NCBI RefSeq assembly: GCF_016592575.1 | Contig: NZ_AP017470.1 | Coordinates: 1,077,471-1,141,470, forward strand | Direction: 5' to 3' | Length of the DNA stretch: 64,000 nucleotides | Source of the DNA: Thermotomaculum hydrothermale | GTDB taxonomy: Bacteria; Acidobacteriota; Holophagae; Thermotomaculales; Thermotomaculaceae | Part shown: piece after piece, positions 37,130 to 49,128 of the stretch | Layout of the letters: every line of letters begins with the position of its first letter | How positions within the stretch are numbered: position 1 is the stretch's first letter | Notes under the pieces: generated by a model | Databases searched by the model: none | What the model was told of the DNA's origin: nothing | Seen by the model: only the letters and a program-made list of their open reading frames with translations | Program-made: the position numbers and the translations under genes

Positions 37130-40100
37130 TTACTCGTCAAGCTTTTTGCCTGAAATGGAGTATCTGATTCTCTCTTTAATGGTATAGAATGTTGGAATAA
37201 ATACAAGTGTTAAAAATGTTCCAACAGTCAAACCCCCAATTGCAACAATTGCAAGAGGAGACAGCCTTTCAAGACCAACTGCCCACTCTAAAGCAATAGG
37301 AATCATACCAACAATTGTTGTAACAGCTGTCATTAAAATAGGCCTTGTTCTTACCTTAATTGCCATTTTAACAGATTCAAGGAATGGATGTCCCTGCTCC
37401 CTGTAAATCTTAATAAAGTCAATTAAGAGAATTGAGTTTTTAACAACAACACCTGCAAGCAAGATAAATCCCATAAAGGCAGGCATACATCCGTGTTTAC
37501 CAGCAATTAGCAAGCCCCAGACAGCACCGATAAAAGCAAATGGAATAGCAATCATTAAAACAATCGGGTCTGAGAAAGACTTGAATGTTACAACAAATGT
37601 TAAGTACAGGAAGAGAACAGAAAGAATAAGAGCCTTGGCAAGCCTTCCAAATGACTCATTCATCTGAGACATTTCTCCCTCTTCAGTAACATGGTAACCT
37701 GCAGGGAATTTTACCTTGCCTACAGCCTTATTCCTCTGCTCGTAAAGAAATGTAACCGGAGCGGTGGCTCTGTATCCGTAAACATCTGCGGTATATCTTA
37801 ACTTATCCCTTGTGATAACAGTGGGAACATAAACCTTTTCAACCTTCGCAACCTCTTTTAAAGGGATGTAAAAGCCTTTAGGTGTCAGAATATTCATTGT
37901 CATAATCTTCTGAACATTGTCTCTCTTTGTGTCAAGATATCTAAACCTTATTCCTATTCCATCCTGGTTGAATATTCTAAATACACTTGCTGGTACACCT
38001 CTAACCGCTGTAGCAATCTGCATTGAAACATCAATAGGGGTAAGCCCGTATGTTGCAAGTTTATCCCTGTTAAAGAATAGGTGATACTCTTCCCTGTCAA
38101 GCTTCCAGTTTCTTGAAACAGACTTGAATCCCGGCATTGATATTAAATTCTTACCCACTTCTTCAGCAAGTTTGTCAAGCCTCTCTAAATTGTCTCCTGC
38201 AATCTCAACATCAATTGTGGATGCAATACTTGACAGAGGTGTTGCACCAAATTCAAATACATCAGCGTATTTTACACCCTTCATTCTTCTAATTTCTTTT
38301 CTCAACTCGTCCTCAATCTGCCAGATATTCTTCTTTCTTTGAAACCTGTCAACAATGTTAACTGTAATGTCAATCTGCTGTGGGGTTCTTCCCTTTCCGT
38401 AGGTTATCAAGCCTGGTTCAGAACCAATAAAGCCTAACTCTGAAATCAATCCAGGAAGCTTTGCAATCTTCTTTTCAATATTTGATAATACTTTTTCAGT
38501 TTGCTCAATTGAGAAATCTGACTCTGTTTCAACCCTAATTTTTATAATACCTGTATCCATAGGAGGCATTAAGTCTCTTCCAACAACCTTTTTCATTGCC
38601 CTTCCAGATAAAAGCAAAGCTATTACAATAATAGGAATAAAAATCCATTTAAACTGGTGGACAAACTCAAATGTTGCAAGGAAGAAAACCTTTAGCCTGT
38701 CAACAAAGTTTACCTCAAAAAAGTGGGCAAACTTGTTTAACCAGAGGATAATCTTGTACTCATCCTTATCATGCTTTTTAATTATAAAAGGTGCTATTAA
38801 AGGAATTATGGTAATTGAAACAACATAGGAAGATATAAGCGCAATGGATAAGGTAACAGTTAACGGCCTTAAAACCTTTTGAACATATCCGCCTAAAAAC
38901 ATTATCGGGATTAAAACAACAACTGAAGAGAATGTACCTGAAAAAACAGCAAGCATAATTTCGTATGTTGCCTCTCTCGCAACCTTCTTTAAGTCGCCTC
39001 CCTTTTCCCTGTAATGCCTTTCAATATTCTCTACAACAACAATAGCATCGTCAACAAGCATACCAACTGCAAGGATAACCGCAGTTAAGGTTACCATGTT
39101 GAACTGCATGTGGAATAACCACATTATTGCAAATGTCAAAAAGTAGGTAAATGGAATTGAAATACCTGTAATTAATGCAGACCTTAAATCAGAAATCATT
39201 AAGAAGATAACAAGTACAGTAAAGATAATCGCTTCTTTCAGAGACTCTTTCAGATTAGAAACTGTAAGGTTAATAATCCTCTCCTGGGAGTCTGCAATGT
39301 TGATATTAACCTGAGGGAATTTCTTTCTTAAAGCTGGTAAAGCCTTTTTTACCGCTTTAATGGTATCCATTGTGTTTCCGTCTTCGTGCCTTACAATGTT
39401 GATTGAAATTGCAGGCTTACCATTGAAATGAAATGCTGAAAATCTATCTTTTACAGTGTTTTTAATTGTTGCAAAATCCCTCAAATGAACTGTTGTACCT
39501 TTGTAAGATACAGGGATGTCTTTTATCTGATTGATATTCTCCAACTCACCCTTTGTTTTGATAACAACCTGTGATTTTTTATTTAAGATAAACCCTTCAG
39601 GAATATCAAGGTTGTTTGCCTTAATAGCTTTAATAACTGCAGAAAAGGGAATTCTAAGCTGAGCAAGCTTTGCAGGGTCAACCTGAATTGAGACTTCTCT
39701 TATCTGTCCACCAAAAACCTCTGCGTCTGAAACTTCCTGAATCTGTAATATTGCGTCCTTTAACTCATTTTCAGCCAACTGTCTTGTTAAAGCAAGGTCG
39801 TATCCGCTTCCCTCTTTTGGTGTAATTGCTAAAGTCATAACAGGGTTGGTAAAATCACCCACCTTAAATATCTGCGGAGGCAGTATGTCTTTAGGTAATT
39901 TACTTTGAACCTTCTGCAATGCAATTACAACATCGGTTGCCGCTTCTTGCAATTTTTTTGAATAATGAAATTCAACTGTTACAACGGCTAACTCATCCTT
40001 TGATATACTCTGCACTCTCCTTACCCCGGATAATGCGTTACATTCCCTCTCAATAGGCCTTGCAACATACTGAGCCATATCCCTTGCAGAAGCGCCAGGC

Positions 40101-40270
40101 TCCATAACCAAAACTGCAACTGTGGGCCTCTGAACCTCAGGGAATAGGTCAGTCTTTAAGGTGTATGAAGAATACACCCCCATTACAAAGGCAAGGAGAG
40201 AAAGCACCATTACTAAATGTGGATTTTTAAAGATAAAATCCACAAATGCGTTTCTTTTGGTTTCTTCCAT
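37130..40270 (-). CDS. RND efflux permease, copy 1
   Basis: This second RND permease has 1,046 residues and begins 2 bp after the membrane fusion protein gene, so it is the pump directly coupled to that partner. The layout and the proton-relay motif VGMLVDDAIVVVENIERHYREKGG (near residue 405) match the HAE1 family. Differences from copy 2 concentrate between residues 370 and 680 and after 850; the segment around 680-800 is again nearly the same. No metal-efflux (CusA-type) signature such as a Met cluster was noticed. The substrate is unknown. Confidence 0.92.
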   Translation of the reverse strand: MEETKRNAFVDFIFKNPHLVMVLSLLAFVMGVYSSYTLKTDLFPEVQRPTVAVLVMEPGASARDMAQYVARPIERECNALSGVRRVQSISKDELAVVTVEFHYSKKLQEAATDVVIALQKVQSKLPKDILPPQIFKVGDFTNPVMTLAITPKEGSGYDLALTRQLAENELKDAILQIQEVSDAEVFGGQIREVSIQVDPAKLAQLRIPFSAVIKAIKANNLDIPEGFILNKKSQVVIKTKGELENINQIKDIPVSYKGTTVHLRDFATIKNTVKDRFSAFHFNGKPAISINIVRHEDGNTMDTIKAVKKALPALRKKFPQVNINIADSQERIINLTVSNLKESLKEAIIFTVLVIFLMISDLRSALITGISIPFTYFLTFAIMWLFHMQFNMVTLTAVILAVGMLVDDAIVVVENIERHYREKGGDLKKVAREATYEIMLAVFSGTFSSVVVLIPIMFLGGYVQKVLRPLTVTLSIALISSYVVSITIIPLIAPFIIKKHDKDEYKIILWLNKFAHFFEVNFVDRLKVFFLATFEFVHQFKWIFIPIIVIALLLSGRAMKKVVGRDLMPPMDTGIIKIRVETESDFSIEQTEKVLSNIEKKIAKLPGLISELGFIGSEPGLITYGKGRTPQQIDITVNIVDRFQRKKNIWQIEDELRKEIRRMKGVKYADVFEFGATPLSSIASTIDVEIAGDNLERLDKLAEEVGKNLISMPGFKSVSRNWKLDREEYHLFFNRDKLATYGLTPIDVSMQIATAVRGVPASVFRIFNQDGIGIRFRYLDTKRDNVQKIMTMNILTPKGFYIPLKEVAKVEKVYVPTVITRDKLRYTADVYGYRATAPVTFLYEQRNKAVGKVKFPAGYHVTEEGEMSQMNESFGRLAKALILSVLFLYLTFVVTFKSFSDPIVLMIAIPFAFIGAVWGLLIAGKHGCMPAFMGFILLAGVVVKNSILLIDFIKIYREQGHPFLESVKMAIKVRTRPILMTAVTTIVGMIPIALEWAVGLERLSPLAIVAIGGLTVGTFLTLVFIPTFYTIKERIRYSISGKKLDE
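39164..40258 (-). repeat. 1,095-bp duplicated tract, copy in RND gene 1
   Basis: This is the partner of 35933-37027. The boundaries are sharp: a C/T difference just before the tract on one side, and three bases differ at the extreme 5' coding end on the other. This points to recent gene conversion or recombination between older paralogues. Confidence 0.9.
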
Positions 40271-40272
40271 TT

Positions 40273-41394
40273 TTACTCTCCTTTACCTAATAAAACTTCA
40301 GTCCCCTTTTCTAACCTCATTAAAAGAGAATCGCTACCAACAACTACTAAATCTCCCTCATGTAAATTACCTTCAACAGCATAGCTATTTGCTGAAGCAC
40401 CTAAAACCTTAACATTAATTGGCTCTACCTTTTTATTTACAATCCTGAAAACAGTATTTGTGTATGCAGATGTTAAAACAGCACCATCTGGCACAAGCAA
40501 TGCGTCCTGAATAACCTCAACAGGTATTTCAACTGAAAGCTTGCTTCCAAGCGGGAGATTAAAGGGATGCTCTGAAAAGTCAATTTCAACAGAACCTACA
40601 CCTAAACCCCTTGCAGAAGGATAAACCCTTGCAATTTCAGCATCCAACTCTTGATTGTTGTAGAGAACCTTTGCTTCCCTTCCAACTTTGATTTTAGGGA
40701 TATCGTCCGATGCAACTGTTACAACAAGCTTGCACGCATTTTTATTTTCCAATTGAACAAGAGGCATAGAGGGCATAATAACATCGCCTTCATTTACCAT
40801 AACCTTTGTTATAACCCCTGAAAAGGGAGCCCTAACTGAGTAAAATGAGAATTTGTCCTGCAAGTTGTACAATCCCTTCTTTAAATTGGAAAGTTGAATT
40901 TCCCCTGCCTTAAGTCTGTTTTCACTTACTTCCAACGCCTGCTTTGAAATTGCCTTATTCTGATATAAATTTAAGTCTCTTTCGTAAATATTTTTTAAGT
41001 TCGCAACTGTCTTTTCCATATCTGCAATTGCTTTCTTCTGGTCTTGAATAGATTTTTCCAGCGCTTTCCTTGTTCCAAAGCTTGAGCCTTCAATCCCGTC
41101 AAGTTCAATAATCTTATCGCCTTTTTTTACAAAATCACCTTCCCTTTTTAGAATCTTTGTTACCTGTCCCTGAATCCTGCCCCTTACCATTGCCTGCTTG
41201 TTAGATTCAAGGGTACCAATGTAAAGCATCCACTTTTTAAATACACCTTTTTTAACCCTGGCAGTGTCAACAGGCACTGGCAACTTTGTTTCAATCCTGA
41301 TTGATTGAAGTTGATGCCATCTAAGTTTAACAAGAGCAATACCCCCAATCACTAAAACAAGAAATACAATGATTAAAATAGTCCATCTTTTCAT
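40273..41394 (-). CDS. RND efflux membrane fusion protein (HlyD/AcrA family)
   Basis: This is the periplasmic adaptor linking the RND pump to the TolC-type channel. The 373-residue protein has an N-terminal anchor (WTILIIVFLVLVIGGIALV), a biotinyl-lipoyl-like half VRGRIQGQVTKILKREGDFVKKGDKIIELDG, a coiled-coil hairpin (about 110-170), and the second lipoyl half FSFYSVRAPFSGVITKVMVNEGDVI. There is no lipobox Cys, so it is anchored by its N-terminal helix. Its start overlaps the TolC-family gene stop by 4 nt. Confidence 0.93.
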   Translation of the reverse strand: MKRWTILIIVFLVLVIGGIALVKLRWHQLQSIRIETKLPVPVDTARVKKGVFKKWMLYIGTLESNKQAMVRGRIQGQVTKILKREGDFVKKGDKIIELDGIEGSSFGTRKALEKSIQDQKKAIADMEKTVANLKNIYERDLNLYQNKAISKQALEVSENRLKAGEIQLSNLKKGLYNLQDKFSFYSVRAPFSGVITKVMVNEGDVIMPSMPLVQLENKNACKLVVTVASDDIPKIKVGREAKVLYNNQELDAEIARVYPSARGLGVGSVEIDFSEHPFNLPLGSKLSVEIPVEVIQDALLVPDGAVLTSAYTNTVFRIVNKKVEPINVKVLGASANSYAVEGNLHEGDLVVVGSDSLLMRLEKGTEVLLGKGE

Positions 41395-42692
41395 TTTAAC
41401 TCTCCTTCTATAGATTTCTTAAGTTCTTCCATAGCAATAAAATAATCATACTTCGCCTTAATTACATTTGCGTCCGCAAGCTGTTTCCTTGCCTTTGCAA
41501 AGAGTAAATCATCAATGTCGCCTCTTCCATTGTCATACTTTAACTGCTCAATCCTCTCAACTTCCTTCTGAAACTTTAAAGAAGCAAGGGCTGTTTTATA
41601 ATTCTGATACTCTTTTTTAACCTTTGTGTAAGCGTCAACAACCTCTTTCCTAACATTAAGTTTCTTGGATTCAACAAGGTTTAAAGCTGACTCTTGCTCT
41701 TTTTTTGCCTGCTTAATTTTGTGATACCTTTTTCCCATGTCAAATAGAGGAAAAGAAACATTTGCAGTAACAGTCCAGAATTTATCGTTAAAATCAATAT
41801 TGTCGCCGTTAACACTCATTAAGTTGGCATCTATACTTACCTTTGGCATCCAGTCTGCCTTTGTTATTTTTAAGTTTAGCTTCTTAATGTTTGCAAAGGA
41901 TTTTGTTGCCTTATAATCACTTCTATTCTCAAAAGCAATACTAATAAGTTTGTTTAAATCCGGGAGATTTAATTCAGGCTCACCTTTAACATCTCCAACA
42001 AGGTTATAATCTTTAACCTTTTCGTCTCCCATTAAATTTGCAAGAGCATTTAAAAGTGATTCTTTTATCTGATTTAAGGTTTCAATCTTGTACTTTGCAT
42101 CTTCAATCTGAAAATTTACCTTGTAAACATCGACCTCAGCAAATTTGCCTAATTTATACCCTTCTTCAATATGAGTCTTTAAACTTTCAAGAGATTTTAA
42201 GTAAGCATTCAATGAATCAAGCTGCTTATCAACCGAAATAATACTTAAAAAAACCTTTGTCGTTTTGTACCTTAAATTCCATTCAAGATATTTCAATTTG
42301 TAGTAAGTGGAGTTTTTCTTCTCAACTGCAATTTTTTCTCCCGCCATAATCTTTCCACCAGTGTAAATTGGAAGCTTATAGTCAAGCCCCCAGTACCAGT
42401 ATTCGTTATCAAACGGCATATTTGTAATTCCAGCAAGCATTAAATCCTTACTCATAGGTCTTATAATATCTTCATCGCTTGTCTTCCTGTAACCTGCATT
42501 TAAATCTAATTCTCCGTACTTAACCTTTTTCGCCGCCTTAACCCCGTATTCACTTGCCTTTAAATTAAGTTTCAAAGCCTTGTAATCTGGATTATTTGCT
42601 AATGTTTTCTGTATAGCATCGTTTAGCGTTAAATTTTGAGCAAATAATAATGGAGTTAACAACAACAAAAAAACAGGTAAAATCCTTTTCAT
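41391..42692 (-). CDS. TolC-family outer membrane efflux protein
   Basis: This is the outer-membrane exit duct. The 433-residue protein has a signal peptide (MKRILPVFLLLLTPLLFAQ) and the two-fold helical repeat of the family: LTLNDAIQKTLANNPDYKALKLNLKASEYGVKAAKK at the start, and a second unit with LPDLNKLISIAFENRSDYKATKSF near residue 245. Amphipathic strands such as KLDYKLPIYTGGK and VTANVSFPLFDMGKR mark the barrel. It overlaps both neighbours by 4 nt (ATGA). Confidence 0.92.
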   Translation of the reverse strand: MKRILPVFLLLLTPLLFAQNLTLNDAIQKTLANNPDYKALKLNLKASEYGVKAAKKVKYGELDLNAGYRKTSDEDIIRPMSKDLMLAGITNMPFDNEYWYWGLDYKLPIYTGGKIMAGEKIAVEKKNSTYYKLKYLEWNLRYKTTKVFLSIISVDKQLDSLNAYLKSLESLKTHIEEGYKLGKFAEVDVYKVNFQIEDAKYKIETLNQIKESLLNALANLMGDEKVKDYNLVGDVKGEPELNLPDLNKLISIAFENRSDYKATKSFANIKKLNLKITKADWMPKVSIDANLMSVNGDNIDFNDKFWTVTANVSFPLFDMGKRYHKIKQAKKEQESALNLVESKKLNVRKEVVDAYTKVKKEYQNYKTALASLKFQKEVERIEQLKYDNGRGDIDDLLFAKARKQLADANVIKAKYDYFIAMEELKKSIEGELK

Positions 42693-43270
42693 ACTAAAAC
42701 CCCCTTTAAAAATATTTTTACAATTTCATTACAATCTTTATCAATTCCAAAAACCTTTCCTGATAGAAAATACTTCAAAACCATTGACTGAATAATCCCC
42801 AAATATACTTGTGCAGCAACCCATTCATTTACATCTTTTCTTATCTCACCAGATTGTTTTTTTAATAATAGCAAATTAGCAATTTTTTCTAACATTTTTT
42901 TGTAAAAAGAAAACATGGCTTCCCTCGTTATTTCATCATTTTCAAGGGAAGACTCAGACATAATAAGAATTGTTACTCCTTTAACCTTTTTTAAATAAGC
43001 GGTTATTAAACAGGTTAAATCGTTAAATAACTCCTCAGCAGGCTTTTTGCTATTAATTTGATCTGTAAGTCTAAGCATATTTTTCTCAATAAAATGGATT
43101 AAAGTAACCAGAATCTCTTTCTTATCATTAAAATGCCTGTATAAAGCAGGCTCAGAAAAGCCCATTTTCTCAGCCAGGTTTTTTGTGGTTAATTTATGCA
43201 AACCTTCATTTGCAATAATCTCAATTGCCTTCTCAACTATTTCCTGTTGTCTTTTTGATAATGTGTTCAC
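42689..43270 (-). CDS. TetR-family transcriptional regulator of the efflux operon
   Basis: This 193-residue regulator has a TetR N-terminal helix-turn-helix: RQQEIVEKAIEIIANEGLHKLTTKNLAEKMGFSEPALYRHFNDKKEILVTLI, residues about 7-58. The rest is an all-helical ligand-binding and dimer domain. It is the first gene of the efflux operon and overlaps the TolC gene, so it most likely represses its own operon, relieved by a pump substrate. A 20-bp inverted repeat lies 13 bp upstream of its start. Confidence 0.93.
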   Translation of the reverse strand: MNTLSKRQQEIVEKAIEIIANEGLHKLTTKNLAEKMGFSEPALYRHFNDKKEILVTLIHFIEKNMLRLTDQINSKKPAEELFNDLTCLITAYLKKVKGVTILIMSESSLENDEITREAMFSFYKKMLEKIANLLLLKKQSGEIRKDVNEWVAAQVYLGIIQSMVLKYFLSGKVFGIDKDCNEIVKIFLKGVLV

Positions 43271-43414: not shown

Positions 43415-45235
43415 TTATTTTTTATTATTATTTTCCGTATCTACAGAATAAATCCACCATAAACCTTCTGGGCCAAAATACTTTTTAAGTATGGTGGCAT
43501 TCTTCACATCAAAATCCTCATTCCATACTGTTGCTGTTGGGTCAAGGCCAAGCTTCCACAAATTCACCCTGTCGTTATGACAGCTATCTGCGCAGGTGTT
43601 TGGCATTCCCCCTTCGTCCTGATACATTAATGTTTTCTCAGGAGGAATTACCTCAAAACTGTGATCTCTTAAAACAGATTCAATATTTGTATTGGCAACA
43701 GCTGTCATATGGCACAATGTGCACCTTGACAACCCCATTGTTCTATCCGGCGCAAAGGGGTGATGAGTGTGAGCACTAACAACCTTACCTATTGCATCAA
43801 CATTATTTTCAAAATCCTGAACCATTTCAGGGGTAATATCTTTAAAAGGGCCGTGCGATGCATGGCATGCAAGGCAAAGGGTATCATCCTTATCACTTGT
43901 TTTAATCTCAACTCCATCCACATTCAAGCTTGTTACTATCTGAAAATCCTGTTCTCTTCCATGCGGGTCATGGCAGTCAAAGCACCTTAAAACATGATAA
44001 GGATTTTGAACATGCTTAGACCTGTTTAACTCTGAATAGTGCTGATTGTGTTCGTAAGATGAAACACCGTCAGGCCAGAACTCATTTGCATTAATATAAT
44101 AATCCTGCAGAGGCTCATTTAAAGCTATATTCCACTCTTTATCTTCTGAATCATTGTAAGGCCAGTTAAATGTTTTATTGGGGACAGACCTTACCCTGTT
44201 ATGGCACCTTCCGCATGTTTCATTTGCCTTATTTGGGTCAAGTTTGTCTGGATTTACAATTTTTGTAGGGTCTCCACCACCTAAAATATGTGCAGAACCA
44301 GGGCCATGGCAGGCTTCACAGCCAACATTTAAAATATCCTTTATTCCATCGTTGTCATAATCAAGGTAATACGGGTCATCAGGGTTATATAGTGTCGCAG
44401 GAAAAGGCTGATACTCCCATTCACCGTCTGACCATTTACCTAAATGCCTTATCCCTGTTGTATGACAACCTATACAGTTTTTAGAAAAAGATGGCTTCAT
44501 TACAGATGCAATTTCAGAGAGAGTCATGCCATTATGAATTTTTGGAGTTCCGTCTGGCTTGTACCACGCTTTTGCCTTGTAAGCTTCATAAGCATGAGGT
44601 GCTAAATTGTACTGAACAACAGAAAAGTATGTATCAAGAGAGTAACCTGTCGGACTGTCTGTTGCAGGAATCCTTACAATATATCTTTCTCTCCACTGCT
44701 GCATCCCCCCGTTTACCATTACAACAGGCAAATCAACATCTCCAATAGTAATTGTATAAACACCGTCTTTTACAGAAAGCTTGGGGGCATAGGGTTTATA
44801 TGGGTCAAATGGAGATGAGATTTCATTGAAATCAAGCCCTTCAACAAAATCGTCAATACCGTTTTGGTTGTAATCAGCTATAACGCCCTTTCCTTCAATC
44901 ATTGAATTTTCAACCTTTGGCACTCTCAATGTCCTTGCGTGATTTGTGTCTTTCCATGTTGAATATTCAGTATGGCAGGCAAGACAGTATTCTGAACCAA
45001 CATAGGTTCTTTCCTCATTATCTTTCGTCTTTCCATTCTTCGCCAATTCTTTTCTTAATTTTTCAATTATCTTCTTAACATAGGGAGTATTCATTCTTTG
45101 ACGCACGGTCTCCGGGTCTTCAATCTTTTTGTGTTTGATAACCATTTGCTCACCGCTTACAGTATTAAACCGATTAGCCGCACAGACCATGCTGGCAAAA
45201 AAAATCATTACCAGCAAAATTACCGTTTTTTTCAT
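43415..45235 (-). CDS. secreted octaheme c-type cytochrome
   Basis: This 606-residue exported cytochrome has a signal peptide (MKKTVILLVMIFFASMVCAA). Seven CxxCH sites are seen: CLACH (84-88), CIGCH, CEACH, CGRCH, CFDCH, CLACH and CTLCH. An eighth site is CADSCH, a CxxxCH variant near residue 560. Two Asp-rich loops, DYNQNGIDDF and DYDNDGIKDI, look like calcium-binding loops. YVGSEYCLACH resembles the cytochrome c554-type family. It is the last gene after a decaheme cytochrome and an MtrB-like barrel, so it is probably the outer-face electron-transfer partner, in the place of OmcB or MtrC. The Cys of the signal is not a good lipobox. Confidence 0.85.
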   Translation of the reverse strand: MKKTVILLVMIFFASMVCAANRFNTVSGEQMVIKHKKIEDPETVRQRMNTPYVKKIIEKLRKELAKNGKTKDNEERTYVGSEYCLACHTEYSTWKDTNHARTLRVPKVENSMIEGKGVIADYNQNGIDDFVEGLDFNEISSPFDPYKPYAPKLSVKDGVYTITIGDVDLPVVMVNGGMQQWRERYIVRIPATDSPTGYSLDTYFSVVQYNLAPHAYEAYKAKAWYKPDGTPKIHNGMTLSEIASVMKPSFSKNCIGCHTTGIRHLGKWSDGEWEYQPFPATLYNPDDPYYLDYDNDGIKDILNVGCEACHGPGSAHILGGGDPTKIVNPDKLDPNKANETCGRCHNRVRSVPNKTFNWPYNDSEDKEWNIALNEPLQDYYINANEFWPDGVSSYEHNQHYSELNRSKHVQNPYHVLRCFDCHDPHGREQDFQIVTSLNVDGVEIKTSDKDDTLCLACHASHGPFKDITPEMVQDFENNVDAIGKVVSAHTHHPFAPDRTMGLSRCTLCHMTAVANTNIESVLRDHSFEVIPPEKTLMYQDEGGMPNTCADSCHNDRVNLWKLGLDPTATVWNEDFDVKNATILKKYFGPEGLWWIYSVDTENNNKK

Positions 45236-45258: not shown

Positions 45259-46083
45259 TTACTCCATAAAATACTTATTTGTGTTTGAGCCATGGATAGC
45301 ATTGTGACATGCAGTACAGTTTCTGTACCTTATATCCCACTGGTTATGAAATGCCGGTGCATCAGCATGACAGGATAAACAAAGAAGCCTCGTTGAATTA
45401 AATCTCAACAAATTAGCATTGTTTGAACCGTGGGGGTCGTGGCACTCAATACAGCCTTTTCTTTCATTGGCAAGGTGAGGGAAAATATAAGGTCCTTTGT
45501 TTTCAGCATGGCATTTCTCACACTTCTTTTTAATTAAATGAGTCCTTAGTTCTCTATAAGTTTCATGAGGGTTGTGGCAGTTTAAGCAAAGGTTTGAATA
45601 CTCACCAGCTGGATGGTGATAAGGCATATTTATTTTGGCGTTTAATTCTTTGTGGCAATTTAAACAAAGTTTGGAATTTGAAGTTATTAAAAGCTTCTCA
45701 GACGGCTTTTTCTTACCTTCCAAATATTTGCCTGTGTGTGCCATTGTGTGACAACTTAAACAACTTTTGTTTTTAGAAAAGTGACTTGAGTGAGAATAGT
45801 TAAAAGAACTATGGCATTTCAAGCAAATCTGGTTTATTTTTTTTGGTGATACACCTTTAAAAGTGTTTATGTTCTCGGTTGAAGGGTCATCTGCATGCCT
45901 GTCCCCACTTCCATGACAATCTTCACAGCTTACCCCATTCTTTTCATTGTGCGGAGTGTGTAAAATAGGTTGCTCAATATCGTCGTGACACTCAATACAG
46001 GTTTCGCTCCCTACATTTGCCTTTAAAATATAGGGAGTCAAAACAATTGCTAAAATTGCAAAACAAAACTTTATCTTTTTCAT
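45259..46083 (-). CDS. periplasmic decaheme c-type cytochrome (MtrA/DmsE-like)
   Basis: This 274-residue exported protein has signal MKKIKFCFAILAIVLTPYILKA and exactly ten CxxCH motifs (CIECH at 29-33, CEDCH, CLKCH, CLSCH, CLNCH, CLNCH, CEKCH, CIECH, CLSCH and CTACH at 256-260), about one per 25 residues. The spacing, the size and the neighbouring beta-barrel fit the MtrA/DmsE/PioA family, which threads through an outer-membrane porin and carries electrons from periplasm to surface. It lies 9 bp after the barrel gene and 23 bp before the octaheme gene. Confidence 0.88.
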   Translation of the reverse strand: MKKIKFCFAILAIVLTPYILKANVGSETCIECHDDIEQPILHTPHNEKNGVSCEDCHGSGDRHADDPSTENINTFKGVSPKKINQICLKCHSSFNYSHSSHFSKNKSCLSCHTMAHTGKYLEGKKKPSEKLLITSNSKLCLNCHKELNAKINMPYHHPAGEYSNLCLNCHNPHETYRELRTHLIKKKCEKCHAENKGPYIFPHLANERKGCIECHDPHGSNNANLLRFNSTRLLCLSCHADAPAFHNQWDIRYRNCTACHNAIHGSNTNKYFME

Positions 46084-46092
46084 AAAAATCTC

Positions 46093-47964
46093 CTATTTAA
46101 TTATTCTAAGTCCGCAAGCTATCTGGTTTATGTTGTAGTTGTAAATGCTCTGTTTATCTTCAGAATAATCAAGGTAAGTCCCCTTTAACCAGATAGAAAG
46201 CCATTTGTTAACAGTGTATGTTAAATCTGCAAAGCATTCCCAGTTTTGAAGGGGGAAACTGTCACCACTATCGTCGTAGTAGTAAAGCCTCAGCCTTGCA
46301 AAAAACCTATTGAATTTATAAGTTCCGCTTAAATAAAAGGCATTCTCTGACAATTCATAGTAGTTGTCATCAACATTTATGTTTTCGTTAATAAACAAAA
46401 GGCTTGAGAAATCAATTTCCATTCTTGTGTAACCAAGAGAAAAGTAACCTTTTGAGTATGAATAGTTAATTGATGCGTTGTAATAGAGGGAATCATCCTT
46501 TAAATCAATATTTTCGTCGTCATTGTTTTTTGTAATTTGCGTTGCACTTCCAGAAAAACTTAATCTGTCATTTAACAAATAATTTGCACTTAAAGTATAA
46601 CCATTTCTATTCTTTCCTGCATTCCTGAAAATAGGGGCATTTATATATTCATGAAAGACGCTTGCTTTAACCCTCAATTTGGACAATTTTAAATCAAACC
46701 CAATTTCATTATGATTGCTGGCTGTTTGATAGTTGTTGTCATGGTAAATATAATCATCGTTGTAAAACTCAGATTTAATGTTTACACTTACATTATTTGT
46801 AATGTTATAGTCTATAAAAAAACTATTGGCATTTCTATGATGCTTGTAATAGTAATACTCAATTGAACTTGTATTTGTTGAAAAAACCGGTGTATCTGAA
46901 ACACCATAAACCACCCACTCTAAAGATTTAGCCAAATTGCTTTCCGTTTTTAGAGAGTTGTAATCTAAAACATACCCTAAAGTGAGTTTGTCACTCGGCA
47001 TGTATGTTAAATTAAAGTTAGCAATATACTCAGGTGCATCAGCACTACCTGAAACTGTTGCAAAAAAATCATTTCTTGAGCCAGCATCTAAAAAAATAAA
47101 ACTTTTGTTACTGTTTAAATTATTTTTTATTGAACCATTTGTGTAATACATTGATAACCCAACACTTAATTTAGAAAGATTGTAATTGATAAGCAGTTTA
47201 CTTGTATTCAAATCGCTGGTGTTTTCCCCTGCTGAATTAATTGCAAGACTTGTAGTCATATTATTAAGAGCAAGTCCGTTTACATCTTTATTTAATAAAA
47301 CAGGTTTATCAAGCACACCAACACTCTGGCTTGCAATAATACTCAATCTGTTTATTCTATAATTCAACCCAAGTTCAAACGCTTCATAGCTTGTTCTCTT
47401 TAAATAGGATAAGTTGTAAATATCACTCCAGTCCTGGTGGGGAAGGTTCAAATAGCCATGAACTTTATTTTTAGTATAATTTGCAAATAGGTTTAAATTG
47501 CTATTCACTTTATAGTTAAAACTCAAATTTAATCTGCTTCTTACAAGGTTTCTATTATTTGAGCCAAAGTTGTAATCTGGGAGATAAAAATAATCAAAAT
47601 CCTGTTTGTAGTAAAACTTAAACCTCCATTTCAATGACTTCTTTAACGTAAATTTAACAAGCCTTCCATTGTCAAACCTGTCCCCTGTACTTGCAAAAAA
47701 ATAAAACTCGTCAAAAAATGAATTCTTCTTATTGTTTGTCACATTAATCTTTAAATAATCAATCAACTCCCCTTCTGATAGGTCAAAATGGTTTCTGTAA
47801 AAATTTCCCCTATCAGAATTTAGAAAACTGTACCCTAAACTAAAATCAGTAGATACTTTTATCCCATCGGAAGCACATAAAAGAAAAGAGAAAGAAAAAA
47901 CAATTAGAAACATAACAAAACGCATTAATTTTCCAACCCCCTGATTTAGTAATAATTTATACAT
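46093..47964 (-). CDS. outer-membrane beta-barrel of the porin-cytochrome complex (MtrB/PioB-like)
   Basis: This 623-residue protein with a signal peptide (MRFVMFLIVFSFSFLLCAS, after a 13-residue leader in this reading) is a large barrel: repeated alternating strands such as LKWRFKFYYKQDFDY, LRVKASVFHEYINAP and YFSLGYTRMEIDFSS, ending in a final strand INQIACGLRIIK. MtrB/PioB-type porins hold the decaheme cytochrome in the outer membrane. No N-terminal CxxC was seen. ATG 47964 is chosen because it has AGGGAG 6 nt upstream and a promoter 40 bp away; ATG 47925 is a possible alternative. It opens the three-gene operon. Confidence 0.78.
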   Translation of the reverse strand: MYKLLLNQGVGKLMRFVMFLIVFSFSFLLCASDGIKVSTDFSLGYSFLNSDRGNFYRNHFDLSEGELIDYLKINVTNNKKNSFFDEFYFFASTGDRFDNGRLVKFTLKKSLKWRFKFYYKQDFDYFYLPDYNFGSNNRNLVRSRLNLSFNYKVNSNLNLFANYTKNKVHGYLNLPHQDWSDIYNLSYLKRTSYEAFELGLNYRINRLSIIASQSVGVLDKPVLLNKDVNGLALNNMTTSLAINSAGENTSDLNTSKLLINYNLSKLSVGLSMYYTNGSIKNNLNSNKSFIFLDAGSRNDFFATVSGSADAPEYIANFNLTYMPSDKLTLGYVLDYNSLKTESNLAKSLEWVVYGVSDTPVFSTNTSSIEYYYYKHHRNANSFFIDYNITNNVSVNIKSEFYNDDYIYHDNNYQTASNHNEIGFDLKLSKLRVKASVFHEYINAPIFRNAGKNRNGYTLSANYLLNDRLSFSGSATQITKNNDDENIDLKDDSLYYNASINYSYSKGYFSLGYTRMEIDFSSLLFINENINVDDNYYELSENAFYLSGTYKFNRFFARLRLYYYDDSGDSFPLQNWECFADLTYTVNKWLSIWLKGTYLDYSEDKQSIYNYNINQIACGLRIIK

Positions 47965-48004: not shown

Positions 48005-48033
48005 AATATATTACTATTTGGCTAAATTGTCAA
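48005..48033 (-). promoter_or_regulatory. promoter of the porin-cytochrome operon
   Basis: Minus-strand TTGACA (48028-48033), a 17-bp spacer and TATATT (48005-48010) lie 40 bp before the barrel ATG. Both boxes are near consensus. Confidence 0.7.
48013..48030. promoter_or_regulatory. 18-bp operator candidate over the porin operon promoter
   Basis: Minus strand ACAATTTAGCCAAATAGT fills the spacer between the -35 and -10 boxes. It differs at only two of 18 positions from the site upstream of the ArsR gene (48768-48785). A shorter relative, ATAACCAAATATT, lies at 48058-48070. The core ATTTAGCCAAAT is nearly palindromic. Confidence 0.65.
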
Positions 48034-48073
48034 ATTAAAATTAATTTATTTTCCAAAATAACCAAATATTCAG

Positions 48074-48376
48074 CTAAAAAATTTTACCAGATTCTTTTAA
48101 CTGTTTTTTAACCTTAGACCAGATTCCATGTTTTTTATAAAATTCTTTTAATTCCTGTAGCGGAGGAAAGGTTATTGCCTCGCCAAGGCAAAGGTTAGCA
48201 CATGTTGTGCACCCAACTACACAGTCAAGAGGATTCTGAACAATAGGTCCATTTTTAGTCCATTTATAAACATTTTTACCGCAATTCATACACATTCCAC
48301 ATTTAACACATTTATCAGGGTCTATAGAAGGTGCCCAGTTAATTTCGCTCCTTTTTACACCAGCAAACCATGCCAT
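48074..48376 (-). CDS. 4Fe-4S ferredoxin-type protein
   Basis: This 100-residue cytoplasmic protein has a first Cys group CVKCGMCMNCGKNVY (about 23-37) and a second, CVVGCTTCANLC (about 52-63), consistent with two [4Fe-4S] clusters in a slightly unusual arrangement. AGGAGG precedes the ATG. The start MAWFAGVKRSEINWAPSIDPDKC and the last 35 basic residues (KEFYKKHGIWSKVKKQLKESGKIF) lie outside the cluster domain. It lies between the porin operon and the ArsR pair and might supply electrons or act as a redox signal partner; its role is not proven. Confidence 0.85.
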   Translation of the reverse strand: MAWFAGVKRSEINWAPSIDPDKCVKCGMCMNCGKNVYKWTKNGPIVQNPLDCVVGCTTCANLCLGEAITFPPLQELKEFYKKHGIWSKVKKQLKESGKIF

Positions 48377-48428
48377 AACAACCTCCTAATATGAAAATAA
48401 TCACAAAATATAAGAAAAAAAATAGAAA

Positions 48429-48752
48429 CTACTCTTCTAAAAAATCAGACTTTCTCTTTAAATCTCTCTTTAACTTCTCCTCCACACAGAGAAAAAAGTT
48501 CAAAACGCACGGTGTAACAAGAGAATAAAAAAACTGCAATCCTCTCTTTTCACTTTTGACTATCCCTGCTTTTTTTAAAACAGATAGATGCTTTGAAACA
48601 GTAGAGACATCAGCATCTATTTTCTCCGTCAAATCACAAACACACAGCTCTTTTCTCTCAAGTTCAAGAACGATAAAAGCCCTTGTGGGGTGAGCCAACG
48701 CCTTCATAATGTTTGCTAATAATTCACTTTTGAATTTTTCTTTTTCCTTCAT
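48429..48752 (-). CDS. ArsR-family regulator with CVC metalloid-site motif
   Basis: This 107-residue winged-helix regulator has ATG at 48752 with TAGAGGTG upstream. It has LAHPTRAFIVLELERKELCVCDLTEKI, where ELCVCDL is the classic As(III)/Sb(III) binding signature of ArsR, then the recognition helix VSTVSKHLSVLKKAGIVKSEKRGLQFFY. Two more Cys occur at the C-terminus (TPCVLNFFLCVEEKL). Its upstream region holds an 18-bp site like the one over the porin-cytochrome promoter, so it is a candidate regulator of both. No arsenic resistance genes are in the window. Confidence 0.88.
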   Translation of the reverse strand: MKEKEKFKSELLANIMKALAHPTRAFIVLELERKELCVCDLTEKIDADVSTVSKHLSVLKKAGIVKSEKRGLQFFYSLVTPCVLNFFLCVEEKLKRDLKRKSDFLEE

Positions 48753-48767
48753 AAACACCTCTATTTT

Positions 48768-48785
48768 ACAATTTAACCAAATAGC
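48768..48785. promoter_or_regulatory. 18-bp operator candidate upstream of the ArsR gene
   Basis: ACAATTTAACCAAATAGC lies 16-33 bp before the ArsR ATG and matches the porin-operon site at 16 of 18 positions. A minus-strand TTGACA (48792-48797) precedes it; the best -10 (TAAAAT, 48763-48768) is 23 bp away, so the exact promoter is unsure. Confidence 0.6.
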
Positions 48786-48804
48786 AAAATATGTCAAGAA
48801 AAAA

Positions 48805-49128
48805 TTAAATCTCTGAAATCTTTTTCCTTTCTTCAAGGCTTTTCTTTGCAATTGAAATAGCGCAGGAATGGAATGTTGATAAACAAGTACACTCACAACT
48901 GTAATAAGAGGTTTGAGCATCTTTCCTAACCTTTACTATCCCCTCATCTCTCAATATTGAAAGGTGTTTGGAAAGGGTCGGCATTTTTATTCCCAAAGTT
49001 TCTGCTAACTCTCCTACAGAATACTCTCTTTTTTCAAGTAACCCAACAATATACACCCTTAAAGGAGTGCTAAACACTTTTGCTATTTTTGCAAACTCTT
49101 TAGCCCTTATCCAATTTAACTCACTCAT
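48805..49128 (-). CDS. second ArsR-family regulator with C-terminal Cys cluster
   Basis: This 107-residue winged-helix protein has ATG at 49128 with GAAGG upstream. The DNA-binding part is FSTPLRVYIVGLLEKREYSVGELAETLGIKMPTLSKHLSILRDEGIVKVRKDAQTSYYSC. Unlike its neighbour it has no CVC motif in the first helix; instead it has a C-terminal group, SCECTCLSTFHSC, a possible iron-sulfur or thiol/metal site. It is divergent from acs and upstream of the first ArsR gene. Two regulators with different sensor sites next to a respiratory operon are unusual. Confidence 0.85.
   Translation of the reverse strand: MSELNWIRAKEFAKIAKVFSTPLRVYIVGLLEKREYSVGELAETLGIKMPTLSKHLSILRDEGIVKVRKDAQTSYYSCECTCLSTFHSCAISIAKKSLEERKKISEI

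Follow-up and report, generated by a model that had tools for sequence, protein, structure and literature searches.

The ArsR/SmtB-type repressor ArsR1 appears to be an autorepressor which derives from an arsenic-efflux regulator and which, beyond its own gene, represses one and probably a second outer-membrane electron conduit, a reading to which we assign, from sequence evidence, a probability of roughly 0.7. The encoding gene arsR1 is located on the minus strand at 48429-48752 of the window, i.e. of the whole 64,000-nucleotide stretch of Thermotomaculum hydrothermale DNA that was analysed. The proposal of the first-pass annotation, that a single ArsR connects its own promoter with an electron-transfer promoter via a shared operator, is supported by a footprint conserved across phyla and by a second conduit operon in the same genome. 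The candidates for the regulator come down to ArsR1 and its genomic paralogue. While ArsR-type control of energy metabolism is already known, an ArsR at an electron conduit would be the new part. To our knowledge, the mechanisms that turn on outer-membrane electron conduits are poorly understood outside Geobacter and Shewanella.

The two 18-bp elements from which this proposal started, ACAATTTAGCCAAATAGT on the minus strand at 48013-48030 and ACAATTTAACCAAATAGC at 48768-48785, were recovered at these positions and are identical at 16 of 18 positions, differing at the remaining two. A genome scan for the motif, as the first-pass annotation had suggested, did not return many random copies: the joint consensus ACAATTTARCCAAATAGY matches exactly at two places in the single-contig genome of 2,317,141 bp, which are the two elements themselves, and its only match with one mismatch (position 1746542) is located inside a coding sequence, with an operator-matrix score below 7. 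The first element fills, as described, the 17-bp spacer of a near-consensus sigma-70-type promoter (TTGACA-17-TATATT, 11/12 positions; 48005-48033, minus strand) in front of the barrel gene of the electron-conduit operon. The second one overlaps the -10 element of the sigma-70-type arsR1 promoter (TTGACA-16-TAAATT, 10/12 positions; 48770-48797, minus strand). Both promoters are predicted by consensus match only. An ArsR gene with a CVC motif does follow the second element, but its start had to be corrected to 48752, giving a protein of 107 aa. The nearly palindromic core that had been noted within the 18-bp element was rejected as the operator, since the dyad axis kept across phyla is located about 4 bp away from that palindrome.

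Each of the two elements belongs to a longer operator of 24 bp, CTATTTGGC-N6-GCCAAATAG, with the structure of a 9-6-9 dyad. The 64-kb window was scanned with a matrix derived from 68 distinct foreign sites, none of them from the source genome, and the three best matches among the 64,000 positions were the sites A1 (48014-48037, 20.7 bits), B (48761-48784, 17.2 bits) and A2 (48046-48069, 16.0 bits), all listed on the minus strand, followed at a distance by a match of 10.3 bits. Site A1, which reads CTATTTGGC-TAAATT-GTCAAATTA on the plus strand, contains one perfect 9-bp half-site, is the only dyad in the genome with at most one mismatch and scores above the autoregulatory site B. In the barrel promoter it overlies the -35 box and the larger part of the spacer, so that bound ArsR1 would exclude RNA polymerase. 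Site A2 lies upstream of the barrel promoter and corresponds to the third site reported at 48058-48070, which is indeed present but is a complete, weaker dyad rather than a partial one. Between the centres of A2 and A1 lie 32 bp, corresponding to about three turns of the helix, a spacing that would suit dimers bound side by side. Site B in front of arsR1 reads CTATTTGGT-TAAATT-GTAAAATAG on the minus strand, with the -10 element at its centre, and its position and layout are the same in the genomes G006 and G008, which belong to the family of the source genome, and at the genomic paralogue. The far half-sites are degenerate at A1, A2 and B as well as at the site E described below.

With a GC content of 35% in the window and of 31% in intergenic DNA, a chance similarity of AT-rich promoter DNA has to be considered for these sites. 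Under a second-order background model of intergenic DNA, matches of the grade of A1 are expected about 0.02 times in all intergenic DNA of the genome (about 200 kb) and about 1e-5 times in a gap of 110 bp, and a match of the grade of A2 about 1e-4 times in such a gap, whereas A1 and A2 occur together within one 110-bp gap and the matrix was built without either of them. Chance is therefore a highly improbable explanation. A generic dyad pattern allowing three mismatches gave about 200 matches in the genome, not above the reversed control, and is thus useless unless the AT-rich centre is included.

The operator was furthermore followed across 79 relatives of ArsR1 taken from named genomes of many phyla. 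A dyad of at least 14 bits was detected upstream of the gene in 74 of the 78 cases with enough upstream DNA, compared with 2 of 3,499 control windows from the same contigs. A second dyad is located within 140 bp after arsR in 34 of the 79 loci. Since its six central bases differ, the operator is defined by its two 9-bp half-sites rather than by the -10 element. The arsP permease motif was found within 1.7 kb in 49 of the 77 loci with enough sequence, and the relatives of ArsR1 mostly seem to regulate operons of the type arsR-arsP-thioredoxin-CcdA. In the promoters of the paralogue and of the G006 and G008 orthologues, CTATTTGGC-TATATT-GCCAAATAG or a close variant directly follows TTGACA. These operons, in which arsR precedes genes for the ArsP permease, an ArsE-type thioredoxin and a CcdA-like protein, share with arsR1 the regulator family, the 24-bp operator before arsR and the autoregulatory layout with the -10 element inside the dyad, and the source genome has one of them as the paralogue. 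The operator of this subfamily, as defined here by the operator itself, is present before arsR1 (site B, 17.2 bits), but the neighbour of arsR1 is an outer-membrane electron conduit instead of a permease: arsP is not located directly downstream, where the ferredoxin and conduit genes are found. A strong operator of 27.7 bits was also observed away from any arsR in Candidatus Zixiibacteriota (L148:6662-6685), about 120 bp before an open frame of 162 aa, so additional targets of the ArsR1 family may exist in other phyla. Given its occurrence in many phyla, the 24-bp operator is also useful for mapping arsR-arsP regulons. The operator strings did not occur in the open-access papers that were searched.

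ArsR1 exceeds the profile cut-offs of the ArsR family (PF01022, 54 bits, cut-off 22; NF033788, 88 bits, cut-off 55) and its model (pLDDT 94) shows the winged-helix ArsR domain, with Foldseek matches to Rv0081, NolR, SmtB and CadC. Four cysteines are present (C37, C39, C82 and C89), three of which (C37, C82 and C89) are invariant in 49 of 49 relatives, while C39 is conserved in 44 of 49. In the model C82 lies at the start of helix alpha-5 and C89 within this helix, and C37/C39 occupy the position that belongs to the As(III) site in the plasmid R773 ArsR. The earlier suggestion of a thiol- or metalloid-type signal is favoured by the three invariant cysteines and by the relatives heading arsP/ArsE-type operons. 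In a phylogenetic tree ArsR1 is placed near the proteins of G006 and G008 and near the paralogue, with weak resolution.

The genome contains five ArsR genes, and two further ArsR loci lack such an operator. The paralogue of ArsR1 (52-62% identical; 62% over the matched 89 residues) is encoded at about 1.614 Mb (G000:C1:1614606-1614914; L052:2784-5916) at the head of an operon comprising arsR, the arsP permease gene, an ArsE-type thioredoxin gene, a second small gene and a CcdA-like (DsbD_2) gene. Its recognition helix is nearly identical to that of ArsR1 (DISTVSKHLSILKKVG against DVSTVSKHLSVLKKAG), and the operator before it is the best one found in the genome (27.2 bits). The conduit sites might hence be bound mainly by this paralogue at 1614.6 kb, or by both ArsR proteins, which would place the conduit in a shared arsenic regulon. 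Site A1, however, adjoins arsR1 and agrees with the arsR1 site in 16 of 18 bases including the AT-rich centre, whereas the site of the paralogue differs at 4 of those 18 positions, and this alternative is regarded as unlikely.

The second ArsR-family gene of the window (arsR2, 48805-49128, minus strand, open frame to 49164) encodes a protein with a C-terminal CECTC motif. According to the matrix search of the 64-kb window no operator of the 24-bp type precedes it, and ArsR2 was rejected as the binder on account of this and of the different DNA upstream of its G006 orthologue. The latter is preceded by another inverted repeat, ATTAGG-N8-CCTAAT (L054:6570-6593), which is possibly ArsR2's own operator.

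Located 53 bp behind arsR1 is a gene for a 4Fe-4S ferredoxin-like protein of 100 aa (48074-48376, minus strand) which is probably co-transcribed with arsR1. Relatives sharing 69-70% identity were detected in G098, near an ACR3-like fragment, and in G144, and a weaker relative was detected in G099 near ArsR genes.

The conduit operon consists of a conserved three-gene module on the minus strand, which is present in several Acidobacteriota. The putative outer-membrane barrel (46093-47964, 623 aa) has no Pfam match and a marginal hhalign profile match to barrels of the MtrB/PioB type (80.9% probability), and its place among the electron conduits rests more on the neighbouring genes than on its own sequence. 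The barrel gene is followed by genes for a DmsE-type decaheme cytochrome (45259-46083, 274 aa, 10 CXXCH motifs; TIGR03508 at 167 bits, below the cut-off of 192) and for a C554-like cytochrome with seven CXXCH motifs (43415-45235, 606 aa; PF13435 and PF22113), which is likely the outer partner. None of 29 other acidobacterial barrel loci, including those of G005 and G006 from the same family, carries the operator (best score 7.5 bits). There is thus no orthologous conservation of the conduit sites, and as relatives possess the same cytochrome operon without the site, the wiring, seen in one genome, is lineage-specific.

Directly behind the cytochrome genes the window contains a TetR-TolC-MFP-RND efflux cluster on the minus strand (37130-43270). 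A homologous cluster lies near the genes for ArsR2, ArsR1 and ArsP in G006, with identities between the window and G006 of 39% for TetR, 51% for MFP and 45% for ArsR2. We infer as the simplest history that the conduit operon and the ferredoxin gene moved to the former place of arsP and that the conduit promoter adopted the control by ArsR1. The same arrangement, with the conduit and ferredoxin genes appearing in the place of arsP, together with the second operator in the arsR-arsP gap of 34 of the 79 relatives, would also be compatible with remnant sites, i.e. with an operon that landed behind arsR1 and with an old operator of the arsP gap that has no present function. This is considered quite unlikely, taking into account that A1 has retained one perfect 9-bp half-site and a score above that of the autoregulatory site, that it lies exactly on a near-consensus promoter and that a similar site occurs before an unlinked conduit.

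This unlinked conduit was found by a pattern search of the genome for the dyad with an AT-rich centre and at most three mismatches. Among the seven places returned, five are intergenic, namely A1, A2, B, the operator of the arsP paralogue and site E at 2.158 Mb, and all five lie at arsR1, arsR-arsP or decaheme-conduit promoters. The other two (0.300 and 1.747 Mb) lie inside genes without evident relation. Site E (14.5 bits) is located 130 bp upstream of a decaheme cytochrome gene which belongs, together with a following barrel gene of the MtrB/PioB type, to an operon (G000:C1:2157246-2158130; L252:8041-11284) divergent from a sugar-phosphate gene cluster. The cytochrome scores above the cut-offs of the GSU2203 family (385 bits, cut-off 325) and of the DmsE family (248 bits, cut-off 192), and the GSU2204/MtrB_PioB-type barrel reaches the MtrB_PioB cut-off. 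Read by eye, the promoter is TTGACA-17-AATAAT with the half-site GCCAAATAT within the spacer, and sites E and A1 have the same register with TTGACA (TTGACAAATTTGCCAAATA against TTGACAATTTAGCCAAATA). Across 396 acidobacterial genomes the 19-base promoter motif TTGACAAWTTWGCCAAATA has two exact occurrences, which are the conduit promoters of the source genome. Since these two sites served to define the motif, the search tests its rarity elsewhere and not its presence here. Four matches with a single mismatch in other Acidobacteriota were discarded since they are not near cytochrome genes. A match of the grade of site E is expected about 0.5 times in all intergenic DNA of the genome, and the site is moderately significant if taken alone. 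No site was detected at a third decaheme-barrel operon (1.590 Mb) or at the cytochrome clusters at 1.37, 0.777 and 0.105 Mb.

Binding, repression and ligand of ArsR1 are deduced from these sequence features, and the proposed control would act as follows. Dimeric ArsR1, whose lineage comprises the regulators of arsP-type efflux operons, would bind the 24-bp dyad. At the arsR1 promoter, where the dyad encloses the -10 element, binding would cause autorepression of arsR1 and the ferredoxin gene. At the conduit promoter the strong dyad on the -35 box and spacer would be assisted by the weaker A2 three helical turns upstream. The ligand is presumed to be thiol-reactive, with As(III) or a comparable soft metal(loid) as the most likely candidate and a persulfide as a less likely one, and may be held by C37/C39 together with C82/C89, which would release ArsR1 from the DNA. 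Release would then switch on arsR1 and the ferredoxin gene and the barrel-decaheme-cytochrome conduit and, more weakly, the second conduit of the GSU2203/2204 type at 2.158 Mb. With sites of the arsenic-repressor type at two electron-export operons, part of the respiration is probably under the control of a thiol-reactive metalloid signal.

Arsenate respiration was rejected as an explanation since no ArrA-like gene was identified in the genome, in which a search for an arsenate respiratory reductase gave one partial match to PF00384 (39 bits). As no such reductase is recognisable, signal and electron acceptor need not be identical. It is conceivable, and we propose it tentatively, that duplication and rewiring of an arsenic-efflux repressor have placed two separate outer-membrane conduits under induction by As(III) or another thiol-reactive signal. 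If true, extracellular respiration would belong to a metalloid stress regulon, for example by reducing the sensed element or by keeping it outside the cell. The operator points to a regulator, to predicted binding sites, to a small regulon and to a few candidate signals, and each of these can be tested once a single protein has been purified.

In Shewanella sp. ANA-3 the arr operon for arsenate respiration is reportedly controlled by an ArsR. This resembles the present case in that an ArsR repressor joins a metalloid signal to a respiratory operon, but the source genome has no ArrA-like reductase and the target is a porin-cytochrome conduit. The repressors sHdrR and SoxR of Hyphomicrobium denitrificans, which control sulfur oxidation with effects on denitrification, are likewise of the ArsR type with conserved cysteines and control energy metabolism, but differ in their sulfane-sulfur signal and target genes (PMC12423496). 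Against the BigR model, which we regard as the closest curated model for such repressors, ArsR1 scores 53 bits and thus falls far short of the 155-bit cut-off. In Geobacter, one-component regulator genes also adjoin porin-cytochrome operons, i.e. orfR and the TetR-family OrfS at omcB/omcC and a LysR- or TetR-type regulator at extHIJKL, but no ArsR regulator is named in the paper on them (PMC6148476). The one paper found that brings ArsR together with extracellular electron transfer mentions ArsR in a list of mutated regulators and no further (PMC13194489). The earlier statement that ArsR control of an electron conduit has not been described agrees with our search, which found no such paper in the open-access literature, the only literature covered, so that this absence is weak evidence.

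Two minor observations concern other loci. At L009:2583-4104 a biotin-carboxylase-like gene is present in two pieces in different frames, owing to a frameshift that is either genuine or an assembly error. Two transposase-like copies with the same N-terminal sequence were detected at L254:16404-17537 and L256:2381-3244, one of which lies beside a large cytochrome cluster.
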